A DNA stretch of 32,486 nt from Nitrososphaeraceae archaeon (GTDB taxonomy: Archaea > Thermoproteota > Nitrososphaeria > Nitrososphaerales > Nitrososphaeraceae), in the NCBI GenBank assembly GCA_009377575.1, contig WHTU01000039.1, forward strand, positions 1 to 32,486. The letters are read 5' to 3'. Below are positions 1-16,676 of this stretch, piece after piece (position 1 is the first letter of the stretch; each line of letters begins with the position of its first letter). The notes below the pieces were generated by a model that was not told the DNA's origin, did no database searches, and saw nothing but the letters and a program-made list of their open reading frames with translations. The position numbers and the translations under genes were made by a program.

Positions 1-1123
1 CCAAGGATTGGCCGATGTCTTCTTGTTTGGTATATTCAGGATAGTCTGGCCTATCTAGAATGAACTCAACAATATTGTAATCATTGGAGTCTAAGGCTAG
101 CTTTCTCAGGGCTGATTCTACCTCTCCAATATTGAAGGACGATCCATATGTTTTCTTACCCTTCAGAATGATTTTTACCCTTGCTGCAGTTGAATATTCG
201 TATCGTGTATTAAGCCCGTGGACATCAAAAGTATCTGTAACCCTCTTTAATATCTGGAGATTGGTATCCTCTGGATAAATTTCAATCGTGTCAAAGATGA
301 TATTTCTACCTGATTGAATTTTCTTAGTAGTGATCCTTGGAGGTGTCTTTTCTTGTTCTAGTTCGACCATGAGATATCCTTTTTCAGTATTAATCTCATT
401 GAAATTCCATAATTCTGTTGATCCAGAATACCAAGCATGATCTGTCACCTTTCGCATCCTATGATCGTCTCCCAGAGCAATGTACTGATAATTACCTTTT
501 AGAAAATCTTCATGTAGTGTAGAATTCTCGATCATACCGTGCGCCATGGCTATATTTATCAAATCAGGAGAAATAGAGTTATTCTGAAGATGAATCCAGT
601 TTTTATATATGGATTGCATACCAAGCGTGGACAACGCCCGAGACTCAATCGAGGGATGCGTAATCACCCTCAGATTTAGATTATTAATGTCAATGAATAG
701 AGGCTGTTGTATCCTTAATGAGTTCCTTGTATCATAATGTGTAAATAAGTGGATGTTATCGAAGGCGACTGGAAATACAGATAGAGTTGAACTGCGATAT
801 TCCATGTATCGTCCGTGGTTACCATCTATTATAATCAGAGGAATATTTGCATCATATAATTGCTTGAATGTCATTGCGGCAACTTTTCGTGCATACTCAG
901 GAGGAGGACTAGGATCGTAGCCAGCAGGGGTGTCAAAGAAGTCTCCGCAATGCAGTATGACATCTGGCCTATTTCTAGCCTTATCTACTATTTCATTGAC
1001 AAACTTGATCCAAGCAGAGTAGAAGTCGTCTTCCAGTGGTCTTACTTCTTGGTTTATGATCCCAGGTCGTGTTTGTTTAGGCCGACGACCAAGATGAGTA
1101 TCAGAAATATGTGCAATTTTCAT
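1..1123 (-). CDS. Mre11/SbcD-like metallophosphoesterase, truncated by the window edge
   Basis: The minus strand is open from ATG at 1123 to the window edge, giving at least 374 residues with the C-terminus missing. The N-terminus MKIAHISDTHLG is the DxH motif of calcineurin-like nucleases. It is followed by GDFFDT (about residue 68), DGNHGR (about 107) and AHGM (about 193), the ordered metal-binding motifs of Mre11/SbcD, which process DNA ends together with Rad50/SbcC. The last motif, normally GHxH, reads GDDH, so one histidine ligand position is aspartate. No Rad50 gene is visible, but the downstream side lies outside the window. Family assignment is good; whether it is true Mre11 or a relative of DNA-repair exonucleases is open. 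Confidence 0.8.
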   Translation of the reverse strand, partial: MKIAHISDTHLGRRPKQTRPGIINQEVRPLEDDFYSAWIKFVNEIVDKARNRPDVILHCGDFFDTPAGYDPSPPPEYARKVAAMTFKQLYDANIPLIIIDGNHGRYMEYRSSTLSVFPVAFDNIHLFTHYDTRNSLRIQQPLFIDINNLNLRVITHPSIESRALSTLGMQSIYKNWIHLQNNSISPDLINIAMAHGMIENSTLHEDFLKGNYQYIALGDDHRMRKVTDHAWYSGSTELWNFNEINTEKGYLMVELEQEKTPPRITTKKIQSGRNIIFDTIEIYPEDTNLQILKRVTDTFDVHGLNTRYEYSTAARVKIILKGKKTYGSSFNIGEVESALRKLALDSNDYNIVEFILDRPDYPEYTKQEDIGQSL

Positions 1124-1205
1124 GGCCGTATAACCTACGATGTATATCAGTGTTCTTGATGTGAGGTATTTGAACTTGTATCTTCATTAGTCGAGCTGAT
1201 ATGCC

Positions 1206-1219
1206 AAGGGATATCCCTT
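1206..1219. repeat. Perfect 14-base palindrome AAGGGATATCCCTT
   Basis: The sequence equals its own reverse complement. It lies 83 bases upstream of the nuclease ATG in a gene-free region, so it could be an operator. No second copy was noticed in the window. Confidence 0.5.
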
Positions 1220-1524
1220 ACTTACTTTAACTCTTGCCCTTGACAACAACAGCTAGACTATAACAGCCATTACAGTTACTTGTGACCGTCCCCCCTTTAT
1301 TGTGAAAAATTTTTGCCGCCGACAGATCATGGACATGGTCATGTTCACATTGATAAGAAGTAGTCTAACTCTGCCTTCATCTTTTTTGGTTCATTCTCGA
1401 TTCAGGATCATAAAACCTCCTTTCAGGGACCCCTAACTTAATATATAAGAATTGAGTACCGCGTGATCAAAGGAATAGAACTTCATAATGATTTTTATGC
1501 CCTTAAATATTGTGCCATAGAAAA

Positions 1525-1534
1525 TATTATTAAT
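1525..1534 (+). promoter_or_regulatory. TATA-like box for the integrase gene
   Basis: TATTATTAAT is centred about 27 bases before the GTG start at 1556, the distance expected for a leaderless archaeal transcript. No ribosome-binding site precedes the start, which agrees with leaderless translation. Confidence 0.4.
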
Positions 1535-1555
1535 TAACCCTTTTTTATGTAATAT

Positions 1556-3055
1556 GTGGATCATAAAGAGCTACCACATGCAGTAACTTTGTCATCAGTA
1601 TTAAACGAAAAAGATATAGCTGAAAAAGTTAGATTAGCTACAGAGCATCTCCATATGCCCTTCTGCCAATCGTTATTGATGAATAGAGCTAGAATGTCCA
1701 AGGAAAACGCCACTACACTAGCAGATTATATAATAGTGATGAAAAGAGAAATCAATCCAAGAGCTAGTTATGTTAAGAATAATATCCAATTTCTCTCTGA
1801 ACTCTCAAGGTTTGTAGGGATAGAAAAGAGATTTGAAGGTTTAACAAAATATGATATTCTTTCCTATCTAGATAGTCTTCGTAAATCAGAAAATGATGAT
1901 CTAATGCATAAATGGATCGGAAGCTACAACGTGAAAAGTGAAGCCATTCTCCGTTTCTATAAATGGTTATACTATCAAAATATTGAGGATCCAAAGAAAA
2001 GAAATGAGCTGTCAAAACTTGAGGGAAAACCAGAATGTATCACCGGTATCCGCCAACTCAAGAGGAAAGAAATTAGCTGCTATAAGCCCAGTGATTTATG
2101 GACGCAGGAAGATGATAGGCTATTTCTAAAGTGGGTTACAAACAAACGGGACAGGTGTTACCATATAGTTGCAAGAGATCTATCGGCAAGGCCGCACGAA
2201 ATTTTGAGCATCAAGATAAAAGATGTTGTATTCAAGAATGTGAATAAATATCAATATGCTGAAACCCTTGTAAACGGCAAAACTGGAAGCAGACAGCTTC
2301 CATTAATTCAATCTATCCCATATCTAAAAGACTGGCTTTCAGAACATCCATGTCGTAATAATACCAATTCCCGTCTCTTCGTGGCTCTGAGTAACAGATC
2401 CAGAGGCAAACCACTTACTGTAGGAGGATTATATCAAATATACAAATACTACAAAGATGAGTTCTTTCTCACTCTATTGAATGATATCAGCATCCCGATT
2501 GAGGATAGAGAAAAGATAAAAGTTCTACTTATCAAACCCTTCAATCCATATATTCGCCGTCATTCTGCTATATCCGAAAAAAGTAAGACCCTCAAGCTCC
2601 ATACTTTAACTCAGCATTGTGGTTGGAGTTTCAATAGCAAGATGCCTCAGAAGTATATACATTATTTTGCAAATGAATCATCAGAATCTTTGCTGGAAGC
2701 TTATGGAATTGTTACCACGAATAATATTCATATTACTTCGTTAAATCCTAAAACTTGCAGTAATTGTGGAGAAGGTAATACTCAGGATGCTCATTTCTGC
2801 AGCAAGTGTAAGATGCTAATGAGTATAGAAGGATATGAAGAAATGTTGGAGACACAGAAAAAGAAAGAAGAAGAGATAAACCAAATGAAAGGAGACCTTA
2901 ACAATACTAAAGAGATGCTTCAACAGTTGATTACAAGTTTAGGGAAAATAACAGACCAGCAGCAGCTAAATACTGTAGCACAATCATTATTCTCTTCTGG
3001 AGTATTGAAAACATCTACATTGCGTCCATCATTAATTAATAGAACAAGTAGTTAG
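1556..3055 (+). CDS. Tyrosine recombinase/integrase with C-terminal zinc ribbon and coiled coil
   Basis: This 499-residue protein has the layout of archaeal phage-type integrases. It has an N-terminal SAM-like DNA-binding part (about 50-150) and then a catalytic domain. Catalytic candidates are Arg212 (ARPHEI), Lys242 (NGKTGS), Arg335-His336 (PYIRRHSA), His354/Trp357 (QHCGWS) and Tyr367 (SKMPQKYIH). A zinc ribbon follows (Cys401, Cys404, Cys415, Cys418), then a charged coiled coil (about 430-470). The start is GTG because a TAA lies two codons upstream in frame; an overlapping ATG at 1554 is out of frame. It probably inserts and excises the element formed by the genes to its right. Attachment sites were not found, so element boundaries are unknown. 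Confidence 0.85.
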   Translation: MDHKELPHAVTLSSVLNEKDIAEKVRLATEHLHMPFCQSLLMNRARMSKENATTLADYIIVMKREINPRASYVKNNIQFLSELSRFVGIEKRFEGLTKYDILSYLDSLRKSENDDLMHKWIGSYNVKSEAILRFYKWLYYQNIEDPKKRNELSKLEGKPECITGIRQLKRKEISCYKPSDLWTQEDDRLFLKWVTNKRDRCYHIVARDLSARPHEILSIKIKDVVFKNVNKYQYAETLVNGKTGSRQLPLIQSIPYLKDWLSEHPCRNNTNSRLFVALSNRSRGKPLTVGGLYQIYKYYKDEFFLTLLNDISIPIEDREKIKVLLIKPFNPYIRRHSAISEKSKTLKLHTLTQHCGWSFNSKMPQKYIHYFANESSESLLEAYGIVTTNNIHITSLNPKTCSNCGEGNTQDAHFCSKCKMLMSIEGYEEMLETQKKKEEEINQMKGDLNNTKEMLQQLITSLGKITDQQQLNTVAQSLFSSGVLKTSTLRPSLINRTSS

Positions 3056-3106
3056 ACTACTAAGCAAGCGATTTGTATTATTTATAATTAGAAATTCCAA
3101 TTTTAA

Positions 3107-4090
3107 TTACTTAACTCCTAGCTTTTTCATGAACTTTACCAGATTTATCATTATACCAATAACTAACTTGGAGGGTACATATGTAGTTAGTACTTTGAAC
3201 GGACCACATTCTATTTTTCCGCTTACTTGAGTCTTCCTTATTTTTCCTTTTCTAAGATCAGATTTTTGTGCTTTATATAAACCAGGATCATAATGTCTAA
3301 TGTAGTAATATTCATATGAATAGGTCTCTCTTCTATCTAAAACTTCATCTATATACTCGTCAAAATGCTGTCGATATAGTTTATTTAGTACCTTCCGAAG
3401 TTCTTTATCATTTATCATTGTTTCACGAACCTTAAGTAACCACTCATTACATTTTTTTACTTTTTTAGTGTTCGCTAAAACGCTATAAGATTTGTCGATT
3501 GCCTTGTCTTTCTGCTTGATGTAGTTAGGTGAAAGATACTTTTGTTTCCCATCCTTTTTTGCAAAAAATTTACGTGATGCAGCATGGTGTCCATAATCTT
3601 TTGAATATGATATAATTTCTCCCCATTCGAAAATGCTTCTGTCCCATCTTCCATCTATAATCGGTATGAAGCATTCACCCACCGCCTTTAAGTAACCTTT
3701 GAAGTACTTTTCGAATAGCTTGTATTCATTATATAAATCTGGATACTTTACAAAAATGAAAGGAAGAATTACAGCTAAAGAGAAAAGCCCTATGGCTCCC
3801 TTTTCCATCTTTCTTACCTTCACCATGTACAATTTATCAGATGGATCTGGCAATTGAGCATTAATAATGGGTATTCTACGTGGATCAAGATCTCCGAAAC
3901 AGGTTTCATATTTGTAGCTATGCTGATTTCTGCTAGGAATCTCTCTTATTGTTCTTCCGTTGCTAGGAGCTTGCATAATTTTATGTATCAACTTCTCCCG
4001 ATTCAGTTTGATCATTTTTTTTCTTACTGACCCATAATTACGACCACATTTAGGGCAATCAAAACCTAACTGGTGTCTTTTAGCAGGCAA
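3107..4090 (-). CDS. Unknown 327-aa protein with N-terminal CxxC
   Basis: I do not recognise this protein. It is basic, begins at TTG (or at Met26), and carries a single CPKCG near residues 12-16 with another Cys near 64, perhaps half of a zinc knuckle. A hydrophobic stretch around 98-115 could be one membrane segment or a buried helix, and the C-terminal half is rich in Lys, Arg and Tyr. It is convergent with the integrase (51 bases between stops) and divergent from the small gene at 4130, with which it would share the AT-rich promoter interval 4091-4129. Its position inside the integrase-led cluster suggests mobile-element cargo or a DNA-binding accessory; this is inference from context only. 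Confidence 0.6.
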   Translation of the reverse strand: MPAKRHQLGFDCPKCGRNYGSVRKKMIKLNREKLIHKIMQAPSNGRTIREIPSRNQHSYKYETCFGDLDPRRIPIINAQLPDPSDKLYMVKVRKMEKGAIGLFSLAVILPFIFVKYPDLYNEYKLFEKYFKGYLKAVGECFIPIIDGRWDRSIFEWGEIISYSKDYGHHAASRKFFAKKDGKQKYLSPNYIKQKDKAIDKSYSVLANTKKVKKCNEWLLKVRETMINDKELRKVLNKLYRQHFDEYIDEVLDRRETYSYEYYYIRHYDPGLYKAQKSDLRKGKIRKTQVSGKIECGPFKVLTTYVPSKLVIGIMINLVKFMKKLGVK

Positions 4091-4129
4091 GTATGATAGG
4101 GGGTAAAAAATACTGCAGTTATAATCTTT

Positions 4130-4390
4130 ATGGTAACTATAGATATGGTTCTAAAAAGAAGTCAGCAAACAATAATCGCTATTTCTAAAAAGAATCACCT
4201 GCAACTTTCCTGGCGGTGTAGGAAAGGACAGTCATTTGATAGCATCTTGACAGAGGTGTTGAAGAAATTAAAAGAATCTGAAGAAAATAAGGCCGAGCAG
4301 TCAAAGGTCGGAAGTAGGAAGCCAAACACTTCGACTGTCGGACTTACTAGCATTCAAACCATCAGTAGGAGTGATTCGAATGATGAATAA
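4130..4390 (+). CDS. Small DUF7557-like protein, possible antitoxin or regulator
   Basis: This is an 86-residue basic protein. The pattern L..L...RKGQSFDSILTEVLKKL (about residues 24-49) resembles small archaeal proteins of the DUF7557/antitoxin type, in which a short strand is followed by KxGxSFDxVI and a helix. The C-terminal 35 residues are Ser/Thr-rich and probably disordered. The ATG at 4130 is preceded by the AT-rich run GGTAAAAAAT about 26 bases upstream. The gene overlaps the next one slightly, so they form an operon. No cognate toxin is recognisable nearby. The family label is from memory of the pattern and tentative. Confidence 0.55.
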   Translation: MVTIDMVLKRSQQTIIAISKKNHLQLSWRCRKGQSFDSILTEVLKKLKESEENKAEQSKVGSRKPNTSTVGLTSIQTISRSDSNDE

Positions 4391-4628
4391 TATTGATTTA
4401 GTAAAAGATAAGCTTTTTCCTTCTACTTTTGAAAATCAATCTAATAAAAATCCAGGAACAGCGCTTCAGCATGATAAAGCTGTCATAGCACGGATTACTA
4501 TTTGTTTAACACCTCATCACAAATGTACTGGACGGTATATCGATTTCTCTAACAGTTTTTCAATCATTTGTGACTGTGTATGTCATTTGGGGCAAGGAAA
4601 AGACGATGATAAAACATCAGATGATTAG
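4380..4628 (+). CDS. Small unknown protein with histidine/cysteine cluster
   Basis: This 83-residue protein is taken from the ATG at 4380, with GGAG about 8 bases before it. A GTG at 4371 or an ATG at 4383 are alternatives. It overlaps the end of the preceding gene by 11 bases, which suggests translational coupling. The C-terminal half has PHHKCTG, then CDCVCHLG, a Cys/His arrangement that could bind one metal ion, followed by an acidic tail. I cannot name the family. Its small size and place between integrase and topoisomerase-like gene fit accessory proteins of a mobile element. Confidence 0.5.
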   Translation: MMNNIDLVKDKLFPSTFENQSNKNPGTALQHDKAVIARITICLTPHHKCTGRYIDFSNSFSIICDCVCHLGQGKDDDKTSDD

Positions 4629-4651
4629 GTCTCCATGAAAGGTGAATTAGT

Positions 4652-4777
4652 GTGAAAAATAAGAATAGAAAAATGTCAACTTTGAGAATGGACTTGAAAA
4701 ATTATAGCAAACAGATTGGCATCATAGGTACAGACATGGACGTCCGGTACCAAAGGAAATGGATAGGCATATGGTAA
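4652..4777 (+). CDS. Possible 41-aa leader or accessory peptide before the Toprim gene
   Basis: GTG at 4652 follows a perfect GGTGA ribosome-binding match at 4641-4645 with 6 bases of spacing, the clearest such site in this operon. The frame runs 41 codons to TAA at 4775. The product is basic (starts MKNKNRKMSTLRMD) and unrecognised. It overlaps the start of the Toprim gene by 19 bases, so its translation could deliver ribosomes to that gene, whose own upstream site is poor. It may be a leader peptide rather than a functional protein. Confidence 0.4.
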   Translation: MKNKNRKMSTLRMDLKNYSKQIGIIGTDMDVRYQRKWIGIW

Positions 4778-6021
4778 AGTACATAATTGGACAACGAAAG
4801 AAAGCAATACAAGAAAACCCAAGCTTATTTGTAACTGAAAGGTGGGATCATTCAGATGTCTTTTACGCCATTAGAACCCACCTAAATCAACACGGTTACG
4901 ACACGTCTGTATATAACGATAATGTGAGAGGTGGCAGTGACCACAGAAAGAGTCTTTATGATATGATTAAACCGGTATGTGAAGACTATTACCATGTAAA
5001 ACGTCATCAAATAGGAATTTATCCTGAAGATAGAACAATCATGGCATTCAAAGGACGAGTTTATTCAGTAGGCTTTGATGACTTGAGGGCTTTAATGCAG
5101 AATGGCACAGATGTAATAGTTGTAGAAAAGCAGGGTACAGTTATCAAAATGGTACCATTCACTGGCAACATAGGTATTGCCTTTATTCAGTCTCAAGGAT
5201 TTGTAAGCGAGTACGGCACCGCATTAGCTGCACTATGTACTGGTGATGGTAAAACAGCATTTGATTATACAGATAACTATGTTCCAATGTACAAAGGCCA
5301 TTTAGGAGTCTTAACTGATTGCGATTCCAGTGGTATTATGATTGGATTGAAAATCAAAAATGCTACCCGGATCGGTATTGACCCTAATACTGTAATTGAG
5401 ATGAATCAGGTGAATAAAGATCTAGGAATAGACCTAGACCTAACAATAGAGGATTTACAAGAAACAACTAGTGTTAATTCTCACTGGACTGCATTAGATG
5501 GTATATTACGTGGTACTGGCAGGGTCTATCAAGGCTTGTCTATACAGGAATGGAAGTTCTATCGAGATTATTTATCCCAATCCTATGACGTCAACGGTGA
5601 CAATATTCAATTTATAGACTATTTAGAGGAGAATAGAATTGAACTAAATACCATGTTAGCTGCGGTCAAACCTGAACCTTTCTGGAACTGGCTAAGATGG
5701 AAATTACTGCAACTTTGGCCTAATAGAGATTATCGGCGTGGCAGCATTTATCTAAATGATACCATGCAAACACCCACCATTAAGAAGCTTATAAACTGGC
5801 ATGCAAAACAGACCAAGCCAGTTATAGAAGATAGTATCAAAAAAGCCAAAGAAGGGCTATCGAAAGTAAAAGGTTTCTATCAAGATGTCAATACTAAACA
5901 AAAAGAGATTGAGACTGAAGTATTGAATAATGTTCTACTAAAGAACAAGAAAATACAGGAAATTGACCTAGCCATAGAATCGATTATGACGAATAACAAT
6001 GAAAACGGCAGAGATGGTTGA
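4759..6021 (+). CDS. Toprim protein resembling the topoisomerase VI A subunit / Spo11 (mini-A-like)
   Basis: The 420-residue protein carries a Toprim fold: VVEKQG with catalytic Glu123, then LTDCDSSG with Asp187 and Asp189, the E...DxD trio that binds Mg2+ in Top6A/Spo11. Upstream is a winged-helix-like region where SDVFYAIR (Tyr36) sits 87 residues before the Glu, close to the spacing of the DNA-cleaving tyrosine in Top6A; Tyr67 (RKSLYDMIK) is the alternative. The C-terminal 150 residues are unlike Top6A and end in a basic coiled coil (about 345-400). No GHKL-ATPase Top6B gene is in the window, so it resembles the stand-alone A-type proteins described from mobile elements. Likely role: DNA nicking, cleavage or relaxation during element replication or recombination. 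Motifs are visible; the role is inferred. Confidence 0.6.
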   Translation: MDRHMVKYIIGQRKKAIQENPSLFVTERWDHSDVFYAIRTHLNQHGYDTSVYNDNVRGGSDHRKSLYDMIKPVCEDYYHVKRHQIGIYPEDRTIMAFKGRVYSVGFDDLRALMQNGTDVIVVEKQGTVIKMVPFTGNIGIAFIQSQGFVSEYGTALAALCTGDGKTAFDYTDNYVPMYKGHLGVLTDCDSSGIMIGLKIKNATRIGIDPNTVIEMNQVNKDLGIDLDLTIEDLQETTSVNSHWTALDGILRGTGRVYQGLSIQEWKFYRDYLSQSYDVNGDNIQFIDYLEENRIELNTMLAAVKPEPFWNWLRWKLLQLWPNRDYRRGSIYLNDTMQTPTIKKLINWHAKQTKPVIEDSIKKAKEGLSKVKGFYQDVNTKQKEIETEVLNNVLLKNKKIQEIDLAIESIMTNNNENGRDG

Positions 6022-6051
6022 GAGTGACTATGAATAGGGGTAATATCATCA

Positions 6052-6243
6052 ATGATAAATAGATCTCCTCTTTCACAGAAAAAAATAAGGTCTGTGATAC
6101 TTAAGATAGATACCAATACACAGACCCAAAATAATCTGTCTCTACATTTCTTGTACGACCATGACAAATTCAATGAAGTTATAGAAGAACTAATTGTAGC
6201 AACAGACAAGTTAGATTATCCTCATTATCATTATGAATCATAA
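6052..6243 (+). CDS. Small unknown protein (63 aa) between Toprim and ATPase genes
   Basis: An ATG at 6052 is preceded by GGGGT about 11 bases upstream. The product starts MINRSPLSQKKIRSV, is mixed in charge and ends in a Tyr/His-rich tail (DYPHYHYES). It lies between and in line with the Toprim gene (30 bases before) and the ATPase (31 bases after), so the three probably share a transcript. Nothing in the sequence identifies a family. The opposite strand is also open here (5880-6209), but that product is less credible. Confidence 0.45.
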   Translation: MINRSPLSQKKIRSVILKIDTNTQTQNNLSLHFLYDHDKFNEVIEELIVATDKLDYPHYHYES

Positions 6244-6274
6244 TCCAAGCAAAATAAAAAGGAGCAATTAATGA

Positions 6275-8410
6275 ATGACTCATATTATCGAACGATGTCC
6301 CAACAAGATTGAGGATGTAATAGAATACTGTGTTTCTATTATAGTCAAAGAGGCTAGAAATGAAGAACGATTAGTAAAGCAGTTAATATATACAATGTTA
6401 AGTGCATATACAAACAATCCTTTCAATCTAGGCATTAACTCTCCATCAGGAGAGGGTAAAAATTGGGTGTTAAGAAAGGTGGCTGAAAAGTTTCCCCGTG
6501 AAGATATAACCTTTTTATCACATATGACTGAAAGAGCCTTATTTCATAGAAAAGGAACATTAGTCCATAAGGATGCATCGGGAGAATACATTCCGACAGA
6601 ATCGAAAATTAAAGAAATTAACAAAATGATTGCTGAAAACGAATATGAGCGAGATAAACTTGATGACAGAGATCAGCAGAAGGAAATTAACGCAGTCATA
6701 GAGGAGTTAGAGGATAAAAGGAAAGAGATTCTAGATAATACTAAGAAACTCATTGAATTATCGCATACAATACTTATTTTTGAAGACACTCCAAAGATGG
6801 GGTTATTCGAGGCCTTAATGTCATTATTTTCTCATGACATGTATGAAGTTGAATATGAATATGTTGATACTAGTGGAACGATTAAGACGAAGACCAACAT
6901 ATTAAGGGGTTGGCCAGTTGGCATATTTGCACAAGCTGTAGACTATAGCAGATATGAAAGATGGCCTGAAGTTCAAAGAAGGTTCATAATGACTAATCCC
7001 AAGATGGATTCAAAGAAGTATGCTGCTGCTGTTGACCTAACGATTGATAAAAACTGTTTACCCCATTTTGTTTATCAAAAAATCGTTTCCAGCGATGAGG
7101 AAAAGGATGAAGTCAGAAATATTATACTGGATATAAAGAGGGCAATATTATCAGTTTGTGATGGTATTGGCATGGATGATAATCCTACATTCGTGCCTTA
7201 TAGTGGGATCCTAAAGCGTATCCTCAGTAAGAGCAAGACTTCAGATATGACAGCAGCGAAAAGATTTACGTCATTTCTTTCGCTGCTGCCGATAATCAAT
7301 ATCAAGAAAAGACCCACTCTTAGAATAGTTACTGATGAGGAAACAAACGAAGTTCAAATGATCCCATTGGCGCTATTCGACGACTTGAGAGAGACATCAT
7401 ATCTAATGGAAGATCCTACAGGAATTAGGCCATATCAAGCAGAATGGTATCATGAAATTTTCCTTGTAATATATAATAGTAAAACACAGCCTGATAGCAG
7501 ACCTAAGGGCAATATAATAATAGAAGAATTAAGGAAAGCAGTAACCACACAGGAGCTCATAGAAGCAACCAAAGAAATGTGGGGTAAGGACTATAATTCA
7601 AACCAATTACTTCAAACTTTTATTTATCCACTGCTTAATCAGGGATATATAGACAGTATCCGGGGTGAAATTGACAGGAGATCGAATATTTACTATCCAC
7701 TTGTAACCTCGAAATATATTAAATTATTATACGAAGACGAATATAATAATTTTGTAAACTCAAAGAAGATACTTATTGAAAATCCCGATATATTTCCTAG
7801 CAAAACATACTTAGAATTTCAAATTCAAGGTCTTTTGAAGTATTATTATGAGAAAGAGGTTTCAATAACAATTGTAGATCATGAAAGTAACGTAATCGGT
7901 ATCAAAGAGTTAATTGGCAGATATTATAATGACACAAAAAAGTATTTCGAAATGAGTGAAATGGCTAAACTGCGATTGAAATCATTATGCCTTTTGGATG
8001 CACTATATCCAACACGACAAGAAGCTGTTGTTAATAGCAATAATAATCGAAATAACACTTCTCATAATAATATTTCTGAAATCCCGAAAATAGGGATATC
8101 TTACAATGAAATTACAGAGAACAAAATAGATTTGGACACTTACAAGGATGAAGATTCTAAGAAATTATTATATGATGACAAATATAATAATTTAATATGT
8201 TTAGACTACCCGGGAAAGTGTTACTATTGTGATGATGGCGGATTTATGGATAAAGATCAATACGAAAGACATGGCATTAGATACCATAAGAATAAGCCGT
8301 TATACCCCGGTTATGCAGACATCAAAGCCTTAGGACTGCAAGCTCAAGGAATGTCCTGGGAACAGGAACCTGAAATAGATGTAATTTTTGAAGAATTTAA
8401 AGAGAATTAA
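6275..8410 (+). CDS. Large P-loop ATPase with coiled-coil insert and C-terminal C2H2 zinc finger
   Basis: This 711-residue protein has a Walker A-like loop GINSPSGEGKN (53-63), with Asn where Ser/Thr is usual, and Walker B ILIFED (166-171). Between them lies a charged coiled coil (about 105-160). A winged-helix-like middle follows, then an Asn-rich linker (about 596-612), and last a finger Cys649-x2-Cys652-x13-His666-x4-His671 and the segment YPGYADIKALGL-QGMSWE. The build recalls primase/helicase-type ATPases of plasmids and viruses, so DNA unwinding or loading for element replication is the leading guess. GGAG at 6260-6263 serves the ATG at 6275; an ATG at 6271 is in a short frame. Substrate and exact family are unresolved. 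Confidence 0.65.
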   Translation: MTHIIERCPNKIEDVIEYCVSIIVKEARNEERLVKQLIYTMLSAYTNNPFNLGINSPSGEGKNWVLRKVAEKFPREDITFLSHMTERALFHRKGTLVHKDASGEYIPTESKIKEINKMIAENEYERDKLDDRDQQKEINAVIEELEDKRKEILDNTKKLIELSHTILIFEDTPKMGLFEALMSLFSHDMYEVEYEYVDTSGTIKTKTNILRGWPVGIFAQAVDYSRYERWPEVQRRFIMTNPKMDSKKYAAAVDLTIDKNCLPHFVYQKIVSSDEEKDEVRNIILDIKRAILSVCDGIGMDDNPTFVPYSGILKRILSKSKTSDMTAAKRFTSFLSLLPIINIKKRPTLRIVTDEETNEVQMIPLALFDDLRETSYLMEDPTGIRPYQAEWYHEIFLVIYNSKTQPDSRPKGNIIIEELRKAVTTQELIEATKEMWGKDYNSNQLLQTFIYPLLNQGYIDSIRGEIDRRSNIYYPLVTSKYIKLLYEDEYNNFVNSKKILIENPDIFPSKTYLEFQIQGLLKYYYEKEVSITIVDHESNVIGIKELIGRYYNDTKKYFEMSEMAKLRLKSLCLLDALYPTRQEAVVNSNNNRNNTSHNNISEIPKIGISYNEITENKIDLDTYKDEDSKKLLYDDKYNNLICLDYPGKCYYCDDGGFMDKDQYERHGIRYHKNKPLYPGYADIKALGLQAQGMSWEQEPEIDVIFEEFKEN

Positions 8411-8517
8411 AAGTTAAGCTTTGTTCTGTTAGGAATAATCAAAGAGGTCGTCGAATATATATTAAGAAGACTGACTCTAAATAAATTAGTCAAGCAAGGA
8501 GGTGAGATCTAATAGGA

Positions 8518-8754
8518 ATGGACGAGTACGATAATTCATTCTGCACTTGTGGACATGAAAGAGAATATCATTCACACAGACCCATTATTCCTCTAGAAGG
8601 GATGGAGAATGATCCCAACGAGCATCTGTACTATTGTACACAGATAGGAGATGGCTGCGGTTGTAACGGATTTGAAGGAAGAAGAATCAATCGTCATAAA
8701 GGAGTCGTTAGAAAGTACGGCACTTCATCATCCTTTTTCTCTTCCACAAAATGA
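8518..8754 (+). CDS. Small zinc-binding protein
   Basis: This 78-residue protein has CxCGHxxxxH (FCTCGHEREYH) near the N-terminus and C....GDGCGCNGFE in the middle, an arrangement typical of small archaeal/viral zinc proteins. A strong ribosome site GGAGGTGA (8498-8505) lies 12 bases before the ATG, which is long spacing. It is the last clear gene of the integrase-led cluster. The stop codon lies inside the palindrome AAATGATCATTT (8749-8760), and T-rich sequence follows at about 8766-8780, a plausible transcription end. Confidence 0.6.
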   Translation: MDEYDNSFCTCGHEREYHSHRPIIPLEGMENDPNEHLYYCTQIGDGCGCNGFEGRRINRHKGVVRKYGTSSSFFSSTK

Positions 8755-8842
8755 TCATTTGCGGGCGTTTCTTCCTTTTTTAAACGTTGACGACTGGTGA
8801 TTAGGATCTTGGGTACTAAAGATAGCAGAAGCGAGTAACTAA

Positions 8843-8953
8843 ATGAAGAAAAGAAGTATTATATCGACATTTGAAGCTGCACACATTCAAAAGCAACTGA
8901 ACGCAGTAAGACATGAACGTGCTAGCATAAGTTCTAATATTAATAAATCATAG
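8843..8953 (+). CDS. Possible 36-aa basic peptide
   Basis: The frame ATG 8843 to TAG 8951 encodes a basic peptide beginning MKKRSIISTFEAAH. There is no good ribosome site and no recognised relative. It is listed only because the interval 8755-9000 otherwise contains no gene. Confidence 0.2.
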   Translation: MKKRSIISTFEAAHIQKQLNAVRHERASISSNINKS

Positions 8954-9000
8954 GGGTGCTTTAATAAAGTAAAAGTAGGGGGTTCTGGCTTTCCAAAGTT

Positions 9001-9873
9001 GTGAAAATAAAGGTTCAGCCGGTCAGAATAACTTTTGTTATAATGACATTCTTGCTATCAATAACTGCGGTAATAACTACTGGTTACTTTTTTTCTTATC
9101 TCCCTCTAGTTAAAGGTCAGCCAGATGAACCTTTACCCGTTCTCCTTATACACGGTTACCGATCTACTAACAATGTATGGGATGAATGGGTAGATCAACT
9201 TGAAGATCTAGGCATATACGCAAAAGCAATAAGTTTTGAAGATGATCCAACAACTGCTATTGATGAAGATGAATGCGGAGCTGCTGAGGATCATGCTGCG
9301 CAGCTAAACCAGTTAGTTACTGATTTCAAAGAAGAAACTGGAAGAGACAGAATAAATATTGTCACCCACAGCAAAGGCGGGCTAGATGCTCGATTGTATT
9401 TGGCTATTAATCCCTTTAGTAAAGATGTCGCAAATCTAATAATGATTGGAACACCTAATGAGGGATCACCGTTAGCTGACCGCTATTATCTGCAAGATGA
9501 TTGCAAACCGGCTGTATTTGATTTAAGAACAACCGCGCCAGTGCTCAGAGCAGAAAAAAATGAACATACTGTATATCATACTATTGCAAGTAACTGGATT
9601 AGCATATACGAATTATTTTCACCATTTTGGTGGATAGCTGAAGATATAAATTGTCCATATCCACCCAATTGGTTTGACTTAGAAGGCTGGAATTTCCTTG
9701 CTTTTCAATACAACGGAAGAAATGAGATCGCAGGACCGGACGATGGAGTAGTCCCAGTATGGAGTGTAGAGGAACCAGGAGAGTTTGCGTCACTAGGTCG
9801 GACCGATAATTGTCACACAAATATGTTTACAGACGATGAATTCGAAAAGGCTATCCGAGTATTGTTAAATTAA
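9001..9873 (+). CDS. Secreted lipase/PGAP1-like alpha/beta hydrolase
   Basis: This 290-residue serine hydrolase begins with a signal peptide or anchor (hydrophobic about 10-36). LLIHGY (48-53) forms the oxyanion region. THSKGG carries the nucleophile Ser124, GPDDGVVP (about 246-253) supplies the acid, and NCHTNM (His272) the base. The fold and order match the lipase class 2/PGAP1 group, acting on ester-linked lipids or surface molecules outside the cell. The start is GTG at 9001 with no ribosome site; Met15 is an alternative. A paralogue with the same motifs lies at 26611-27438 on the other strand. The substrate cannot be read from sequence. Confidence 0.75.
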   Translation: MKIKVQPVRITFVIMTFLLSITAVITTGYFFSYLPLVKGQPDEPLPVLLIHGYRSTNNVWDEWVDQLEDLGIYAKAISFEDDPTTAIDEDECGAAEDHAAQLNQLVTDFKEETGRDRINIVTHSKGGLDARLYLAINPFSKDVANLIMIGTPNEGSPLADRYYLQDDCKPAVFDLRTTAPVLRAEKNEHTVYHTIASNWISIYELFSPFWWIAEDINCPYPPNWFDLEGWNFLAFQYNGRNEIAGPDDGVVPVWSVEEPGEFASLGRTDNCHTNMFTDDEFEKAIRVLLN

Positions 9874-10634
9874 ATGATTTCTTACTCAACGAATGTCATA
9901 TTGGTTTCATATGTCCCCTAATATCTGATTCAGAATCTGCATTTTGACTTGCTAATGGGCTAGAACCTTTTGAGTCACATGATTGTGCCGATAATATTTT
10001 ACAAACCTCTGGGTTTCACGTCTATCTTTTCCCTTTATTACATATATTCCCTTAATAGATAGATTCAATATTACATTCTAGAAGTAGACAATACTGCCTC
10101 AGAGTATTATTTAAAGGTATAACAGCAAGGTTACCTGTCATGTAACGTCCTAAATGGGCAGCAAATACCTCCTTATACTCTCACAATGCGTCCCATATGT
10201 CCCATGTGTCCCAATCGTTAGACGAACAAGAGGAGGGGTCTTATGGTAATTCCTAAAAATTGTAACAAATAATGATAATTTTGATTCTCATTTTGGGACT
10301 TCGTGTTCCTCTGTTTATTGGGCTAATTATTAAGTCTGCGTTGTTGTCATCAATTGATTTAATACGCCATCCCTTTCCGATAGGAAAGATACAGCAGCTG
10401 CAGGTGCTGTACGTCAAATCCAAACAGACGTAATACTGTCTGAGAAGTGTTGGGGAAGTGAGTTGATCAGTTGAGTATAAGGAGTATATACGCGGAGTAA
10501 TTCCCTATTACGAACTAACCTTTGAAGAGAAACAGAGGCTCAATTCAAGGGCTAGATCAGACAAAGGAGACAACAATAACATTTCACGTATTTCGGAGGA
10601 AACATAAGAAGATAAACAGTAGTCTGAAACAATT
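9874..10634. other. Gene-poor stretch with hairpins and a short coding-like remnant
   Basis: About 760 bases hold no complete gene. Three near-repeats of TCCCATATG/TCCCATGTG lie at about 10192-10215. Two adjacent inverted repeats lie at 10374-10410. From 10467 to 10607 a frame without a start codon reads like protein (YYELTFEEKQRLNSRARSD), probably a decayed gene. The 13-mer at 10464-10476 recurs at 32145-32157. Confidence 0.4.
10374..10410. repeat. Two adjacent small inverted repeats
   Basis: TTTCC-GATA-GGAAA (10374-10387) is followed by ACAGCA...TGCTGT (10391-10410). Tandem hairpins in a gene-free region could be an RNA structure or protein sites. No associated gene was identified. Confidence 0.35.
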
Positions 10635-10978
10635 GAGATTCTAAATCGCAAAAAAAAGCCTGAGGGAATGACAGACAAGGAATGACAGGCCAAAAGACGG
10701 GAAGCCAGAAAACTACGAAGAGAATTAAGAAGGAACGCAATGCTGATATGAAACTCTGGCATAATAATGCAACAGGGGAACTTGGACATAGAGTAGATAA
10801 ACTGCGTTTCATGTGTTATTGTAGAGGGAAATACATTAGAAGTAGAAGGATTTGCAAGATTTGTAAATTAGCAAAGAAAATTGATGATTACATGTTAGAT
10901 CTCTTCAAAAGTGCGGCGGAAGGGCGTAGCAGCAGCAATATTTTTAATATATTGATAGTAAAATCATGTGACGCTTAG
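10635..10978 (+). pseudogene. Remnant of a basic Cys-rich protein, with in-frame stop and frameshift
   Basis: Coding-like sequence starts at 10635 in one frame (EILNRKKKPEGMTDKE), meets TGA at 10683, and goes on in frame as QAKRREARKLRRELRRNA. It then continues in another frame from about 10745 as MKLWHNNATGELGHRVD and CYCRGKYIRSRRICKICK (CxC and CxxC pairs). The basic helix followed by a Cys cluster looks like one broken DNA- or RNA-binding gene. A distinct short gene starting at 10682 is possible, but its first 20 residues would be a shifted reading of the Arg-rich helix. No family is recognised. Confidence 0.4.
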
Positions 10979-11144
10979 ATGTGACGATTAGACATAAACA
11001 AATTTCATTTCGACTTGTGATAAGCAATAAAAGGTCTTCTTGATACAGTATTGCATATGACAAAAATTTCTGTCATCACCATTTCTCCATTGGAGGTACA
11101 CAAAACACTAAATCAATGCAAATCCTATAATATCCTACGTAGCA

Positions 11145-11813
11145 TTGCTACTGTTATTATCTCAGCTGTTTCTACTACTAACAAGTAAGTTGCAATACAC
11201 TAAAATATCATTGAATGTTAGTTATTGTAGTATAGCTTTGACATCTGCTATAGACAAGGGTTACTTTATTAATACGTCTCCTACCGCATGGTCAAATGCT
11301 TCTCGTACTACTACTAAAGATAGAAAAACTGTGGTTCTAACTACTGCTCCTGATCCCATCCCCAGAATTGAGGTAACATGGCCAAATGGTACATTAACTC
11401 ACTATACGCCTGGAGGATACAGCTCTAAATATCGTTTCATAGGATCAGACAACTATTTGTTATTGCTTGATTCGTCTACTGGAGTTGGAGCTGTACAACA
11501 TAATGTATATGTAGTAGACTTTAACCTTTCTTCAGAAAAATCTATTATTAGCACTGGATACGTACCACTTACTGTTAATCCTCCTAATATTCATTACAGT
11601 CAAGGAACAGGTTCAGCTTTCCTTGTATTTAATCCAAATAGATCTAACTTTGAAAATATTGGAATTTACGAAAGTGATGATGGTGCACCGCTTTGCATAC
11701 TCTATTCTGCTGCCGATCTTACAGGACAGATACTTGGAGAGGCTACCGGTACAGAATTAAAAATCTATTATGTATACAACGGAGTTACTAAAACCCATTC
11801 ATGTCCACAATAA
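11145..11813 (+). CDS. Secreted beta-rich protein of unknown function
   Basis: This 222-residue protein starts at TTG with a Leu-rich signal-like segment, followed by a Thr/Ser/Gly/Asn-rich beta-strand pattern with several Asn-x-Ser/Thr sites. Segments such as RIEVTWPNGTLTHYTPGG and NIGIYESDDGAPLCILY suggest an extracellular beta domain. No ATG is available in frame, because the next upstream stop is at 11109. That makes the 5' end suspect, and the gene may have lost its original start. It sits alone between remnants. Function is not inferable. Confidence 0.45.
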   Translation: MLLLLSQLFLLLTSKLQYTKISLNVSYCSIALTSAIDKGYFINTSPTAWSNASRTTTKDRKTVVLTTAPDPIPRIEVTWPNGTLTHYTPGGYSSKYRFIGSDNYLLLLDSSTGVGAVQHNVYVVDFNLSSEKSIISTGYVPLTVNPPNIHYSQGTGSAFLVFNPNRSNFENIGIYESDDGAPLCILYSAADLTGQILGEATGTELKIYYVYNGVTKTHSCPQ

Positions 11814-11884
11814 TCTATACTTGTAAAAAATGATATGGGTAGTATTGACAAAAACATACGATTCTTGGCGACTTATTATCTTGA

Positions 11885-12142
11885 TATGCAAGCAAGTTTG
11901 GACTTGCGGGGTTGGCTGAAAGTCTGGCATTAGAAGTTGACTCCTATGATATAAGAGTGATGACAATATTTCTGGGACAAGTAGCAACAAAAATGTGGCA
12001 GGATTATGATTACAATTATTACGAGAAAAATAAGAATAAGATGCTTAGTCCTCAAAAGGTGGCAGCAAAAAAAATTGTCGAAATGATTCTAGACGTAAAA
12101 AAATACAAGAATGGAGACTCTGTAGAGATGTATAGCCCCTGA
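11885..12142 (+). pseudogene. C-terminal fragment of a short-chain dehydrogenase/reductase
   Basis: The frame begins directly after a TGA with YASKFGLAGLAESLALEV, which is the catalytic YxxxK motif of classical SDR enzymes plus the following helix. It continues through IRVMTIFLGQVATKM (the usual FPGQVAT segment) and KMLSPQKVAAKKIVEMIL to the end. The Rossmann half with the NAD(P)-binding TGxxxGxG motif and the catalytic Ser is absent upstream. The 86 remaining codons cannot make an enzyme. Sequence quality of the fragment is high, so the truncation is probably recent. Confidence 0.75.
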
Positions 12143-12441: not shown

Positions 12442-13644
12442 ATGCAAGGATTAAACAGGCAGGAAACAGAGGATTACGTCATAGATCTGTATTATAATCA
12501 AAAAAAGACGATTAGAGAAATTCAGAAAATAGTAAGAAAATCTCCTCGTGATCTAAGTTTTATTCTCAATAAGGTGGAGCCAGAACGGTCTTCTCTTTCT
12601 GAATCTTCAAGAGCCTATCGATTATTTAAAGATCGACGCAATTTAATCGATGTTGCTACCCTTCTAAATCTAAGAGAGAAAGAAGTGACCGAGTATTACA
12701 GAGAATTCTGGAATCTAAATGGAATGTATGCCCTCAATCAGATCTATGAAGAAATCAAAGCAGAAGGAATTCTATCAATAGTCGGATTACATAGAAGAAT
12801 GAAGGAAGAATGTCTGAGTCCACAACAGTTCACTAGAATTCTTAAGAGGATTATAACACTTGAACGTCAAAATATAGATCTAGAAGGTGAACAAGCTAGA
12901 TTGGAAGTAAGCAATAAGCAGGCAACTAAGACCTTTCAGCAATTTACCGATCTTGCACAGAAAGATCGCAAGACAATGGAAGAAAATTTTTCTATCATCA
13001 GCCAACAAAGACGAGAGATTGAAAATCTAAACATAGAAAAGGCAAGACTAGAGAATAGCATTGATTCTATTTGGTTGAACAATGAAACATGTGTTAAAAT
13101 CAATCATATAGTAAAGCATGAAATAGAAAGCATCATATCAAATCCTAGATGGATGTTAAGATTAGCTCTTGCATCTTTATTTGAATCTTCAAGGAAACAC
13201 CCTGGAAAATTTCAGACCTTGTATTATAACACGCTTTCTCACCTGTCAGTGGAACAAATATTATCAGAATCATCCGACAGTCAAGACGCTAGCCTATATG
13301 GTTTCGGTGAAAATGAACATGAGAAATTACTTTTAGACGAAGCCGAACAGTCCTACAATAGGATTGTTGATGCCATTACAAACAATTGTATTAATGGGAT
13401 GCCTAACAATACTGAATCATTATCTCCCATATCGCATGTACCTGATGTGCAAGGTATAGGAGGCAGTAGTAAAATATTTGATACTAGAGACTTGTCTCAG
13501 GTTAATTTTGTGTATAATAACATTACATTTCAACTGTCCCCTGGTCGTCCAAAAATCACAAATGAGAGTAATAGCGGAACGGATGTAATGCCAGGAGAAG
13601 ATGAATCAGATACCTACAGCTCCTTACAAGAGCAACAAGAATGA
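12442..13644 (+). CDS. HTH protein with long coiled coil (thaumarchaeal-type)
   Basis: The 400-residue protein opens with helix-turn-helix sequence (RQETEDYVIDLYYNQKKTIR then EIQKIVRKSPRDLSFILN, 5-42). A second HTH-like unit follows (SRAYRLFKDRRNLIDVATLL then NLREKEVTEYYREF, 56-91), then a coiled coil (about 135-210) and a polar C-terminus. Proteins of this build are common and multicopy in soil Thaumarchaeota; DNA binding is likely, targets unknown. GTTTAAAGC about 31 bases upstream is a TATA candidate. The TGA stop is followed in the same frame by 53 further coding-like codons, so this copy may be a shortened version. Confidence 0.6.
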   Translation: MQGLNRQETEDYVIDLYYNQKKTIREIQKIVRKSPRDLSFILNKVEPERSSLSESSRAYRLFKDRRNLIDVATLLNLREKEVTEYYREFWNLNGMYALNQIYEEIKAEGILSIVGLHRRMKEECLSPQQFTRILKRIITLERQNIDLEGEQARLEVSNKQATKTFQQFTDLAQKDRKTMEENFSIISQQRREIENLNIEKARLENSIDSIWLNNETCVKINHIVKHEIESIISNPRWMLRLALASLFESSRKHPGKFQTLYYNTLSHLSVEQILSESSDSQDASLYGFGENEHEKLLLDEAEQSYNRIVDAITNNCINGMPNNTESLSPISHVPDVQGIGGSSKIFDTRDLSQVNFVYNNITFQLSPGRPKITNESNSGTDVMPGEDESDTYSSLQEQQE

Positions 13645-13806: not shown

Positions 13807-14141
13807 GCGGTAGGTTATAAGATGAGATGCTCAGTCATAATATTTGCAACTGAGCAGAAAACAGCTTTCGTAGAATGAATGCAGAGTACACGAGCAATAT
13901 CCAGGCACAGTCATTGTTCTAACTGTGAATGTGACTGTTACGCACATCCGCAGGTTCAGGTCCTAAGTTCATCTGACCAGAGCGAGATTGTGATGAAGCG
14001 TACCGTAGTAGTCCCACGAATCCTTTTCATATTTGGCAATGGAAAGTAAATCCGTTACTATATTTTTATAATGTAAGTTAAAAACTTCCCTTCGACACAC
14101 GAACTAGTCCACTAAATTTAACCCCGTTTCAAGCCTTTGTT
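13807..14141. other. Gene-free stretch, 335 bases
   Basis: No credible frame, repeat or promoter was seen apart from the AT-rich TATATTTTTATAATG at 14059-14073, about 70-80 bases upstream of the next open frame. Composition becomes noticeably less AT-rich near 13930-14040. Confidence 0.4.
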
Positions 14142-14411
14142 TTGGCGCACCTCACCACTGAGGATATCCAGCGTCAACGTGACGGTACGGCGTTCGGGAG
14201 GCCAGTACCAGACTTGGAGCATACTCTTAGATATAGATATGCGACCAGCATAAACGAATTGACAACCATAGTGAATCCAGACCTTATTCCAGGCCATGAG
14301 TGGAATGCAGATGATACTCTTAGAAGAATGGGAGTTCATATAATAGAAACCAAGCAATATCACAGACTGATGCTTGTGGAAACGGTCAAGAACCGACAAA
14401 CCATCCCATGA
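14142..14411 (+). CDS. Doubtful 89-aa open frame
   Basis: TTG-started frame with an ordinary composition (segments PGHEWNADDTLRRMGVHIIE and TKQYHRLMLVETVK) but no recognised family and no ribosome site. It is followed by an out-of-frame remnant of a secreted protein, so it is probably also part of a decayed gene. Confidence 0.2.
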   Translation: MAHLTTEDIQRQRDGTAFGRPVPDLEHTLRYRYATSINELTTIVNPDLIPGHEWNADDTLRRMGVHIIETKQYHRLMLVETVKNRQTIP

Positions 14412-14622
14412 TTCGTCCGAAGTTCAATTACTTCCAGGCGATTACCGGGTAATTGAAGACGTTGAACCTGTACCAGAAACCGAAGGCTTTGATTTTGTTT
14501 CTGTTGTTCTTGACGAAGGATGTAGTAGCAGTACCTCCGGAGGACCCATACAGGCTGGAGAAGAGAGAGAATGTCAAATCATAAACACCTATCATGAGGT
14601 ACGGTTACCACCACCAGACTAG
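14374..14622 (+). pseudogene. Fragment of a prealbumin-like/SpaA-type secreted protein
   Basis: The frame carries LLPGDYRVIEDVEP, GFDFVSVVLDEGCSS and IQAGEERECQIINTYHE, then ends PPPD. This is the signature of prealbumin-fold (SpaA/Cna-B-like) domains in archaeal surface proteins: PGxYxVxE, a C-containing strand, AGExxxCxxxN, and a proline linker before the next domain. Such proteins normally have a signal peptide and several repeats. Here one domain remains, without a credible start, and the frame stops at the linker. It is a leftover of a surface protein. Confidence 0.5.
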
Positions 14623-14910
14623 AATCGTAGTAGCAAGAGTATTACGCCGAGGCCAAGGTATAATAGTCCTGGAAAGTCGTTACCATGTAATTCCTGTGTC
14701 GCCCTCAGGGAATCCAGGGTTGATGACAGCGAGACTCGCGTCACTTATCAGGAGCGCTGGGACATCGAGACGAGGAACGCTAACCAATACGTTTGAAATA
14801 TCACGTCTAGTTTTTAATAGATGAGACAAAACTCTCTAGATATCTATATCTAATAATTCATCACCAAAGAAATAATTAATACCGTAATACAAAGCTTAGA
14901 CTGAATTTCT

Positions 14911-16329
14911 TTACTCAGCTACTTCAACAACACCCATCATGCCATTATCTCCATGGAACATAGTGTGGCAGTGATAGACAAACTTTCCAGCGAAATCATC
15001 AAATGGTATGCGAATTACTACTTCACTTTTCGCAGGAAGCACTACAGTGTCCTGTAAACCACTCGCGTTGTAAGGTTATCCATTTATTGACATTACCTGA
15101 AAGTCATTAGTGTGAATATGAAAGCTATGCGATTGCTCTTCGCCATCCATATTTCTGATTGTCCACTCCTCAACATCTCCTAGCTGCACCTGCTGGTCTA
15201 CTCTCGTAGGATCAAAAATCTTACCGTCGATCATGTAACGTCTCTCTTCATCATTTGACGAAAAGACAAGCGTCCGATGACGATCAACTGTCAGATTGCC
15301 AAGGTCATTTCGTGGTGTGAGAGTAGATGGTATTGTCGCCTGTGTTATAGTGGCACCTTCTACGTTTAGCTTTGCCAATGTTACCTCCGGACAGTCTACA
15401 GATGTACAGATGGTCAGATGGGTGGACAGTGCAGTGAGAGGATATGTTCCTGGAGCCCCTGCAGTGACTAATACATCATACCTTTTACCAGAGGAAAGCA
15501 GAAGCTGCTGCGCATCCCAAACGCGCCAGACGGGGTTCCCATCTTCTGCTATTACATGGAAGGTATGGTTGGGCAAAACAATGTTGTAGTATGTTTCAGA
15601 CCCTATATTCGCCAGTCGCCACAGCTGGGTTTCCCCTGTCGCGATATTCAGAGTAGGATTAATATCACCATTAATAGTACGCTGGGAAGGGGCCGTTGGA
15701 CCTCTGATCTGAAAGTCCTTCATTGCAATCTCTTTTTCTTCAATATTGTGGAGTGACGCGGGCAGCAGATTAACCAGCTCCTCTATCACAATTAAACCTG
15801 ACATTCCAGCAGACACTTGATCATATGAAAGATGATGCTGGTGGGAATGATACCAGAATGTTCCTGGAGGATGATCGGCTGGAATGTCTATAATGTAATT
15901 TGCGATCGCTCCAGGGCCTACTTCACGAAAGACATTGTCTGAGTTGCCTGATGGAGACACGTGAAGCCCATGGAAATGAAGGTTCGTAGGCATTTCAAGC
16001 CTATTAATTAAAGTCAATTCTATTCGGTCGCCCGCACTAGCTTGTAGTGTTGGTCCAACGAGAGATCCGTTGTAAACCATAGCTGTAAATGATTGGTTCG
16101 CAATCTTGCCCTCCTGTTCGTCAGCAATTATTGTCGCTCGTAAGACTCCATTCTTACTATGGACTTGTGTGGCTGCGGAGAAACCTTCCTCGACAGCGAG
16201 GCCAACCAGACCGCCAGATATAATTGTCATAAATGTCACTAGCACTAGAATAAATGAAATTACTACTACTATCACGGCATCCATTTTATTAGAAATAAAG
16301 TTTCTCTTAAATGCTCGCTCTCTGTTCAT
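14911..16329 (-). pseudogene. Three-domain multicopper oxidase interrupted by one in-frame TAA
   Basis: From ATG 16329 the frame encodes an anchor or signal segment (17-45), then HFHGLH (118-123), WYHSHQHH (159-166) and HSFHIH (401-406). It meets TAA at codon 418 (15076-15078), directly after FQVMSING. The same frame then resumes with PYNASGLQDTVVLP and ends at 14911 after HCHTMFHGDNGMM (453-465), the type 1/type 3 copper motif. The complete reading of 472 codons is a normal length for CueO/laccase-like oxidases of Cu(I), phenols or metals. The truncated 417-residue product lacks essential copper ligands and should be inactive. The segment is less AT-rich than its neighbours. AACTTAAAG about 23 bases before the start is a weak TATA box. 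Confidence 0.85.
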
Positions 16330-16676
16330 CCACTATCAGAATCCAACTTTAAGTTTATGTTCATACACTCCTAAGTTATAATTGTGAACCTACTCCGCGT
16401 AAACTTCTAAAAAAGAGAAACAGAGAGAATCCGAATTGAAAGAGCTTAAAGAGAAAATCACAAACAGTTCAAACCTAAAGTCCAATTGGTTTATGGCAGT
16501 GATACAAAAGAATGCAATATGTTATAGCGGATTTAATCTAACCCACTATTTTAAGTACCCAGACTTTATATGATTGACATCTAAGCATTGAGATAAACGA
16601 TTCTTGCTTGTGTTGAAGCATACTTTCCGGGAGGTATTCGGGTTACTGTACAGCATACAAGCTTGGCTATGAACAT
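16330..16676. other. Gene-free stretch with a startless coding-like frame
   Basis: Between divergent genes, the plus frame 16403-16573 is open for 56 codons without a start. Its first half is a Lys/Glu-rich helix (KKEKQRESELKELKEK). It may be a gene remnant or chance. Confidence 0.3.

Follow-up and report, generated by a model that had tools for sequence, protein, structure and literature searches.

What can an integrated element do with the DNA-cutting half of a topoisomerase if the ATP-using half is missing? This question is raised by a contig of 32,486 nucleotides (C313; GenBank WHTU01000039.1, assembly GCA_009377575.1) from a Nitrososphaeraceae archaeon, whose draft genome comprises 3.89 Mb in 380 contigs and is 99% complete; the whole contig, at its full length, is referred to below as the window. 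From position 1556 to about 8754-8927, the window contains an integrase-led, integrated mobile element carrying such a half, a type IIB topoisomerase A subunit of 420 amino acids (aa), beside a 711-aa AAA+ ATPase that is probably a replication helicase or initiator. The genes from 4130 to 8754 are tightly spaced and all on the plus strand, as in an operon. On balance, though with no great assurance, they are read here as the replication module of the element, in which the A-type DNA gate manages topology, or cuts DNA, for the helicase. The locus extends a known but poorly understood group of mobile-element topoisomerases, Topo VIII and Mini-A, to soil ammonia-oxidising archaea.

Identity of the 420-aa protein

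The protein encoded at 4759..6021 on the plus strand is confirmed as a stand-alone type IIB topoisomerase A subunit of the Top6A/Spo11 superfamily by its residues, hhalign profile comparison, fold and position in a phylogenetic tree. It carries the Toprim motifs VVEKQG and TDCDSSG, as an earlier note on this DNA had described. Tyr36 of the winged helix is present in 18 of 19 aligned relatives, among which the Toprim residues Glu123, Asp187 and Asp189 are near-invariant. A profile of the A domain aligns with 11 Nitrososphaeria Top6A proteins over 169 columns (hhalign, 96.8%, E 2.3e-10), matching Glu123 and the TDxD motif such that E123 and D187/D189 correspond to E198 and D250/D252 of Top6A. 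The five best Protein Data Bank (PDB) matches in a Foldseek search with the AlphaFold model are MksG and the Top6A proteins of M. mazei and S. shibatae, aligned over 311-376 columns with probabilities of 0.97-1.00, and Pfam matches among the relatives comprise DUF2399, Toprim and TOP6A-Spo11_Toprim. The assignment proposed in the earlier note, to Top6A/Spo11 and not to another Toprim group, is thus borne out by structure prediction, which places the protein with Top6A and MksG, and an OLD- or primase-type Toprim protein is ruled out by domain matches, fold and hhalign together. A methyltransferase (2i2x) returned by a PDB sequence-profile search matched part of the profile only, including the linker and the start of the Toprim domain, and was set aside because of this partial span and its disagreement with the fold and motif evidence. 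Single-sequence searches of Pfam, PHROG and PDB with the A protein and the ATPase returned nothing useful, the A protein found no match among viruses or phages (tblastn in phages included), and a search of a viral structure library with its model gave no informative match.

The best Foldseek E-value belongs to MksG (8b7f), a plasmid-defence nuclease, and 11 of the 19 relatives match DUF2399, the Toprim family of MksG and JetD. Together with the missing GHKL half, these matches favour an unlikely alternative, in which the solo A protein would be a Spo11/MksG-like nuclease making lasting breaks for recombination, excision of the element or competition with other mobile DNA. The element, however, contains no SMC-like (MksB/JetC) partner and has no PADLOC match, and the conservation of Tyr36, as well as the full GHKL-transducer part retained by close relatives, fits a topoisomerase lineage.

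A solo lineage among Topo VIII-like enzymes

Of 70 genomes of the family, 11 encode relatives of the A protein, and most of the loci hold much larger fusions of GHKL, transducer and A domains or split forms of these. The fusions are about 810-1000 aa long (L073, L074, L075, L076, L079, L082, L084 and L089). In one group of split forms (L030, L081, L083, L085 and L087), a transducer-A protein comes after a GHKL piece of about 270-310 aa; in the other (L080 and L090), B and A are separate proteins of 655-670 aa and about 340 aa, respectively. The fused B parts share an N box, KELxDNALDF, and a lid region, YSSKRNQxxISRGALGDALKE, and a separate B protein gives weak HATPase_c and Topo-VIb_trans matches. 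Both fused and split relatives are Topo VIII-like, Topo VIII being the name given in reviews to type IIB topoisomerases that plasmids and integrated elements carry (Takahashi et al. 2020, as cited in PMC8185306, PMC7614492 and PMC8084294). The archaeal members published number four, all euryarchaeal (PMC7614492); many more from soil archaea that oxidise ammonia would widen the range beyond the Euryarchaeota given in reviews.

A maximum-likelihood tree of 22 A domains, rooted at the midpoint, unites the window protein with a 389-aa protein of Ca. Nitrosopolaris (L072) in a clade with 100/100 support and a long stem, and this solo clade sits among the A halves of Topo VIII-like fusions. The two solo proteins are 37% identical and both intact, and the A domains of the fused proteins share 23-35% identity with the window protein. 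Each solo protein begins just upstream of the winged helix, retains the catalytic residues and has no GHKL or transducer part, and each gene is followed by a short open reading frame (ORF) and then a helicase gene; the short ORF encodes 63 aa in the window (6052..6243, plus strand, no Pfam family match) and 59 aa at the equivalent place in L072. The full support and long stem suggest that the solo state is an old lineage.

Two further relatives stand apart. A 381-aa A-domain protein at L037 (G118:C8, 8932-10077) is without the catalytic Tyr and the Toprim Glu and is surrounded by methyltransferase and McrB/McrC-like genes; it could be an inactive or defence-linked derivative. An 865-aa Topo VIII-like fusion at L143 (1202-3799), from the GC-rich draft genome of archaeon LSA3.bin14, is well separated from those of Nitrososphaeraceae in the tree.

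The GHKL/transducer half is absent from the element, so that the earlier observation that no Top6B partner is visible holds for it. A GHKL/transducer profile run against the rest of the genome found the C325 element and a broken piece on C370, and no dedicated B gene. The C325 element (L030, G000:C325, 7244-12557) is a second element of the same genome, with a broken integrase, a 273-aa GHKL-like piece and a 663-aa transducer-A fusion; its enzyme is a split Topo VIII-like one. The host encodes its own Top6A on another contig, C111, with Top6B-like frames directly upstream. Both could in principle supply a B subunit in trans, to the host Top6B or C325 form of which the solo A would then attach as a true topoisomerase subunit. 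Such an arrangement is rather improbable, for although the solo A retains the N-terminal helix that follows the transducer in fusions (the split A proteins of L080 and L090 are without it), its similarity to the host Top6A is distant, covering the 169 columns given above, and the broken integrase makes C325 an undependable partner.

The gene might instead be decaying cargo, the remnant of a Topo VIII fusion that has shed its B part. Broken relatives (L078 and L091) and the abundance of element remnants in the genome lend themselves to this explanation, and published Topo VIII genes are often in states of inactivation (PMC7614492). It is nevertheless a poor candidate, as the two solo genes are intact at 37% identity, are fully supported sisters, and keep their Tyr, Glu and Asp residues.

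The ATPase and the slot beside it

The 711-aa protein (6275..8410, plus strand) is probably an AAA+ replication helicase or initiator of MCM/D5-like type. It has a Walker A motif, NSPSGEGKN, a winged helix and, as the earlier note recognised, a C-terminal C2H2 finger module (8219..8311, plus strand; CYYC...YERHGIRYH). Its frame, the longest open frame in 3901-8800 at 711 codons, compares with a maximum of 148 in 300 shuffles. Relatives, found in 20 of the 70 family genomes, share an invariant G61 and K62 in the Walker region and a conserved hydrophobic-acidic strand. Four fetched relatives of about 830-880 aa (L125, L126, L130 and L131) carry an N-terminal Prim-Pol domain above the Pfam cut-off, another (L132) is joined to DNA polymerase B (PolB) within a protein of 1636 aa, and two (L129 and L135) adjoin genes with the PriX domain of primases. 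Relatives also occur on four IMG/VR contigs (L183-L186), of which L184 and L186 carry large terminase genes, L184 also encoding a ParB-like protein; these two represent a viral branch of the family. The best PDB match of the ATPase model in Foldseek is Mcm4, followed by ORC and RuvB-like proteins, with poxvirus D5/E5 and AsfvPrimPol lower in the list. No Pfam family covers the AAA+ core of the window protein, and plasmid searches with it and with a Topo VIII-like fusion were empty. Because the Prim-Pol and PolB fusions, the viral relatives and the Mcm4 fold match point the same way together, the family is assigned to replication helicases or initiators.

Members of this ATPase family adjoin three kinds of type IIB A-type protein, which fill one slot beside it. 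In the window the neighbour is the solo A protein; in Nitrososphaerales TH1177 (L075, the same locus as L140) it is a full Topo VIII-like fusion with its own GHKL and transducer parts; and in two Nitrososphaera elements (L133 and L134) an integrase is followed by a phrog_6247 'DNA topoisomerase', or Mini-A, and then by the ATPase. The linkage between the two kinds of gene, whose repetition the earlier note named as support, recurs. Mini-A proteins come from archaeal viruses and phages, and their function is stated as unknown in reviews (PMC7614492, PMC8185306 and PMC8084294). A search with the L134 protein finds Pseudomonas phage NP1, whose Mini-A, pictured in PMC7614492, is encoded in a cluster for replication and recombination, among genes for primase, ligase, Sak4, Cas4-type exonuclease and helicase. 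Other A genes also lie beside replication genes: those of L072 (a helicase of a family different from the window ATPase, and an AEP-like primase), L088 (primase, helicase and PolB) and L090 (MCM and PolB). A rough estimate from about 29 A/ATPase pairs within genomes, with a 10 kb neighbourhood and 4 Mb, puts chance linkage at about 0.08 pairs, against two observed, the query included, in addition to the Mini-A cases. The shared slot ties solo A, Mini-A and complete Topo VIII alike to the replication of small archaeal elements, and it turns the role of an A-type DNA gate minus its ATPase half into a testable question.

Under the reading preferred here, the 711-aa protein would act as the AAA+ replication helicase or initiator of the element, its winged helix and C2H2 finger probably binding the origin. 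The 420-aa protein, to judge from its residues and fold, would act as a dimer, cleaving both DNA strands by means of Tyr36 and of Mg2+ held by the Toprim domain, and would be able to rejoin them. Descended from Topo VIII-type proteins and standing without the GHKL half, this gate would most likely relieve supercoils, or separate linked copies of the element in its excised circular form, while the helicase drives replication. It may do so slowly without ATP, as one Topo VIII relaxed supercoils (PMC7614492), or with a B subunit borrowed from the host or another element. Computational tools supply the family identity, catalytic residues, gene order, recurrent pairing and helicase family profile behind this scheme; from these, cleavage and resealing, the homodimer, the partner and the role in replication are inferred. 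As for the earlier suggestion of a replication or transfer module, the helicase profile speaks for replication; with regard to transfer, neither a relaxase gene nor one for conjugation was noted in the element.

Several observations weigh against this scheme. The AlphaFold model of the A protein is of moderate quality (pLDDT 67.9, pTM 0.63), with Foldseek E-values of 6e-3 to 2.5e-2, and that of the ATPase is of low confidence (pLDDT 60, pTM 0.42), which makes its MCM/D5-like placement within AAA+ tentative. A topoisomerase is found at 4 of about 17 ATPase loci and is thus optional for the helicase, and genes of one element naturally cluster, so that linkage by itself is modest evidence for joint function. 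Nor was an attachment repeat of at least 12 bases found except a 13-base match at 17229, and an empty-site search located no left end.

An improbable, more radical proposal is that the solo A starts replication itself. A tyrosine-linked cut at the origin would leave a 3'-OH that primes synthesis and would load the adjacent helicase, and the A protein would thereby replace the primase or Rep protein used by relatives of the same ATPase. The ATPase loci paired with an A-type protein (the window, L075, L133 and L134) have so far shown no primase or polymerase, whereas seven others have one fused or adjacent. Strict exclusivity between primase and topoisomerase was rejected, as L072 holds a solo A and a primase gene beside its different helicase. 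Finally, the speculation of the earlier note that the ATPase takes over from GHKL in powering the topoisomerase, prompted by two adjacent genes on one strand in an element without GHKL, is very improbable and is contradicted by the TH1177 locus, where an ATPase relative adjoins a GHKL-bearing Topo VIII, and by the fusion of the family elsewhere to Prim-Pol or PolB, as well as by the pairing of the closest solo A relative (L072) with another helicase family.

The element, its kin and known systems

The element opens with a tyrosine recombinase of 499 aa (1556..3055, plus strand) that has a C-terminal zinc ribbon and coiled coil; it matches phrog_1 of PHROG at E 1.4e-11, and its Pfam matches to Phage_integrase and Zn_Ribbon are weak. 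Convergent to it lies a gene for a CxxC protein of 327 aa (3107..4090, minus strand), to which no function is assigned. The array was therefore only partly described by the earlier note as one-directional: this holds for the integrase and for 4130-8754, and the 327-aa gene breaks it. A relative of the CxxC protein (E 1.4e-5) adjoins the split topoisomerase of L087, and Cys-motif genes resembling it by inspection adjoin the integrase in L033 and L126. The integrase and the small Cys/His proteins named previously are all found as ORFs. An 86-aa protein (4130..4390, plus strand), earlier called DUF7557-like, has no Pfam match at E<=1 and no PHROG family match. It is followed by a Cys-rich protein of 85 aa (4371..4628, plus strand; CLTPHHKCTGRYID...CDCVCH). 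Small Cys-rich proteins like it were sought with a regular expression that does not capture the window copy; in L031 and L033 they are encoded between the integrase and the replication genes, and in L072 upstream of the gene for the solo A protein. A Cys/His-rich protein of 78 aa with no Pfam family match (8518..8754, plus strand) is the final gene of the array.

The right end of the element lies within 8755..8927 because 89% identity to the chromosome of a related genome begins at 8927 and continues rightward. This edge was supplied by an alpha/beta hydrolase copy in the related genome, the third of its kind; the window itself encodes two secreted, oppositely oriented paralogues of this enzyme (9001-9873 and 26611-27438). 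The earlier view of a thaumarchaeal integrated element, marked by its tyrosine integrase, is supported. An Rfam scan of 1-12000 found no RNA, and a tRNA search of the window found none. The composition of the element resembles the remainder of the contig; farther right, positions 14000-16500 form a GC-rich stretch (0.43-0.46) that stands out from the contig in composition and was possibly acquired; it holds a multicopper-oxidase-like gene close to one for a metal P-type ATPase.

Besides this copy, the same genome contains 17 matches to the integrase, many of them broken. The same integrase type accompanies other replication genes, namely an AEP-D5 primase-helicase on C255, another ATPase with the same finger on C221 and a Mini-A on C33. 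The C33 element (L036, G000:C33, 4610-9820) comprises an integrase, then a 330-aa phrog_6247 Mini-A and a 195-aa C2H2 protein, so that one genome holds both a canonical Mini-A and the Topo VIII-type solo A of the window. Among the topoisomerase loci, integrases are matched at L030, L082, L084, L089 and L090 and recognised by inspection at L077 and L087. Six other contigs of the genome of the window (C221, C322, C20, C365, C199 and C316) carry further copies of the C2H2 finger module (CYYC...YERH.V.RHP.LPGYPG), at ATPase ends or as short stand-alone ORFs, possibly as element remnants or as an element-specific DNA-binding mark. Proteins with a helix-turn-helix and coiled coil (KGKTYREIAKE.. type) neighbour many of these elements (window 12442-13644; L031 1741-2502; L082 8447-9268; L123 11284-11817; L132 6279-6776) and may regulate the elements or belong to a gene family that serves as their target site.

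Compared with known systems, the window A protein is homologous to the C-terminal halves of the Topo VIII-like GHKL-transducer-A fusions of this archaeal family, and like Topo VIII it resides on an integrated element; unlike Topo VIII, it has no GHKL, H2TH or transducer part, fused or adjacent. With Mini-A it shares its stand-alone form, its place in a mobile-element replication region, the order of integrase, A and ATPase seen in L133 and L134, and a distant profile similarity (hhalign, 78%, E 1.8e-5), but it does not match phrog_6247 and groups with Topo VIII A domains. The fold and catalytic residues are those of the Topo VI A subunit and Spo11, although PF04406, the Pfam family that recognises cellular Top6A, does not match the window protein, and no B gene lies beside it. 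MksG and JetD resemble it through the 8b7f fold match and the DUF2399 domains of its relatives; they differ in the SMC partner and PADLOC match that the window element does not have. The ATPase, in turn, recalls MCM-like helicases through its Mcm4 match and, through the Prim-Pol domains of its relatives, the primase-helicases of mobile elements (Prim-Pol with AAA+/SF3), though the window protein carries a C2H2 finger and no primase. As a whole, the element departs from the survey of thaumarchaeal cryptic integrated elements by Krupovic et al. (2019, PMC6563490), the main text of which names type IA topoisomerases only, in its type IIB enzyme, and it resembles the elements described there in being small, integrase-led and built around exchangeable replication genes.

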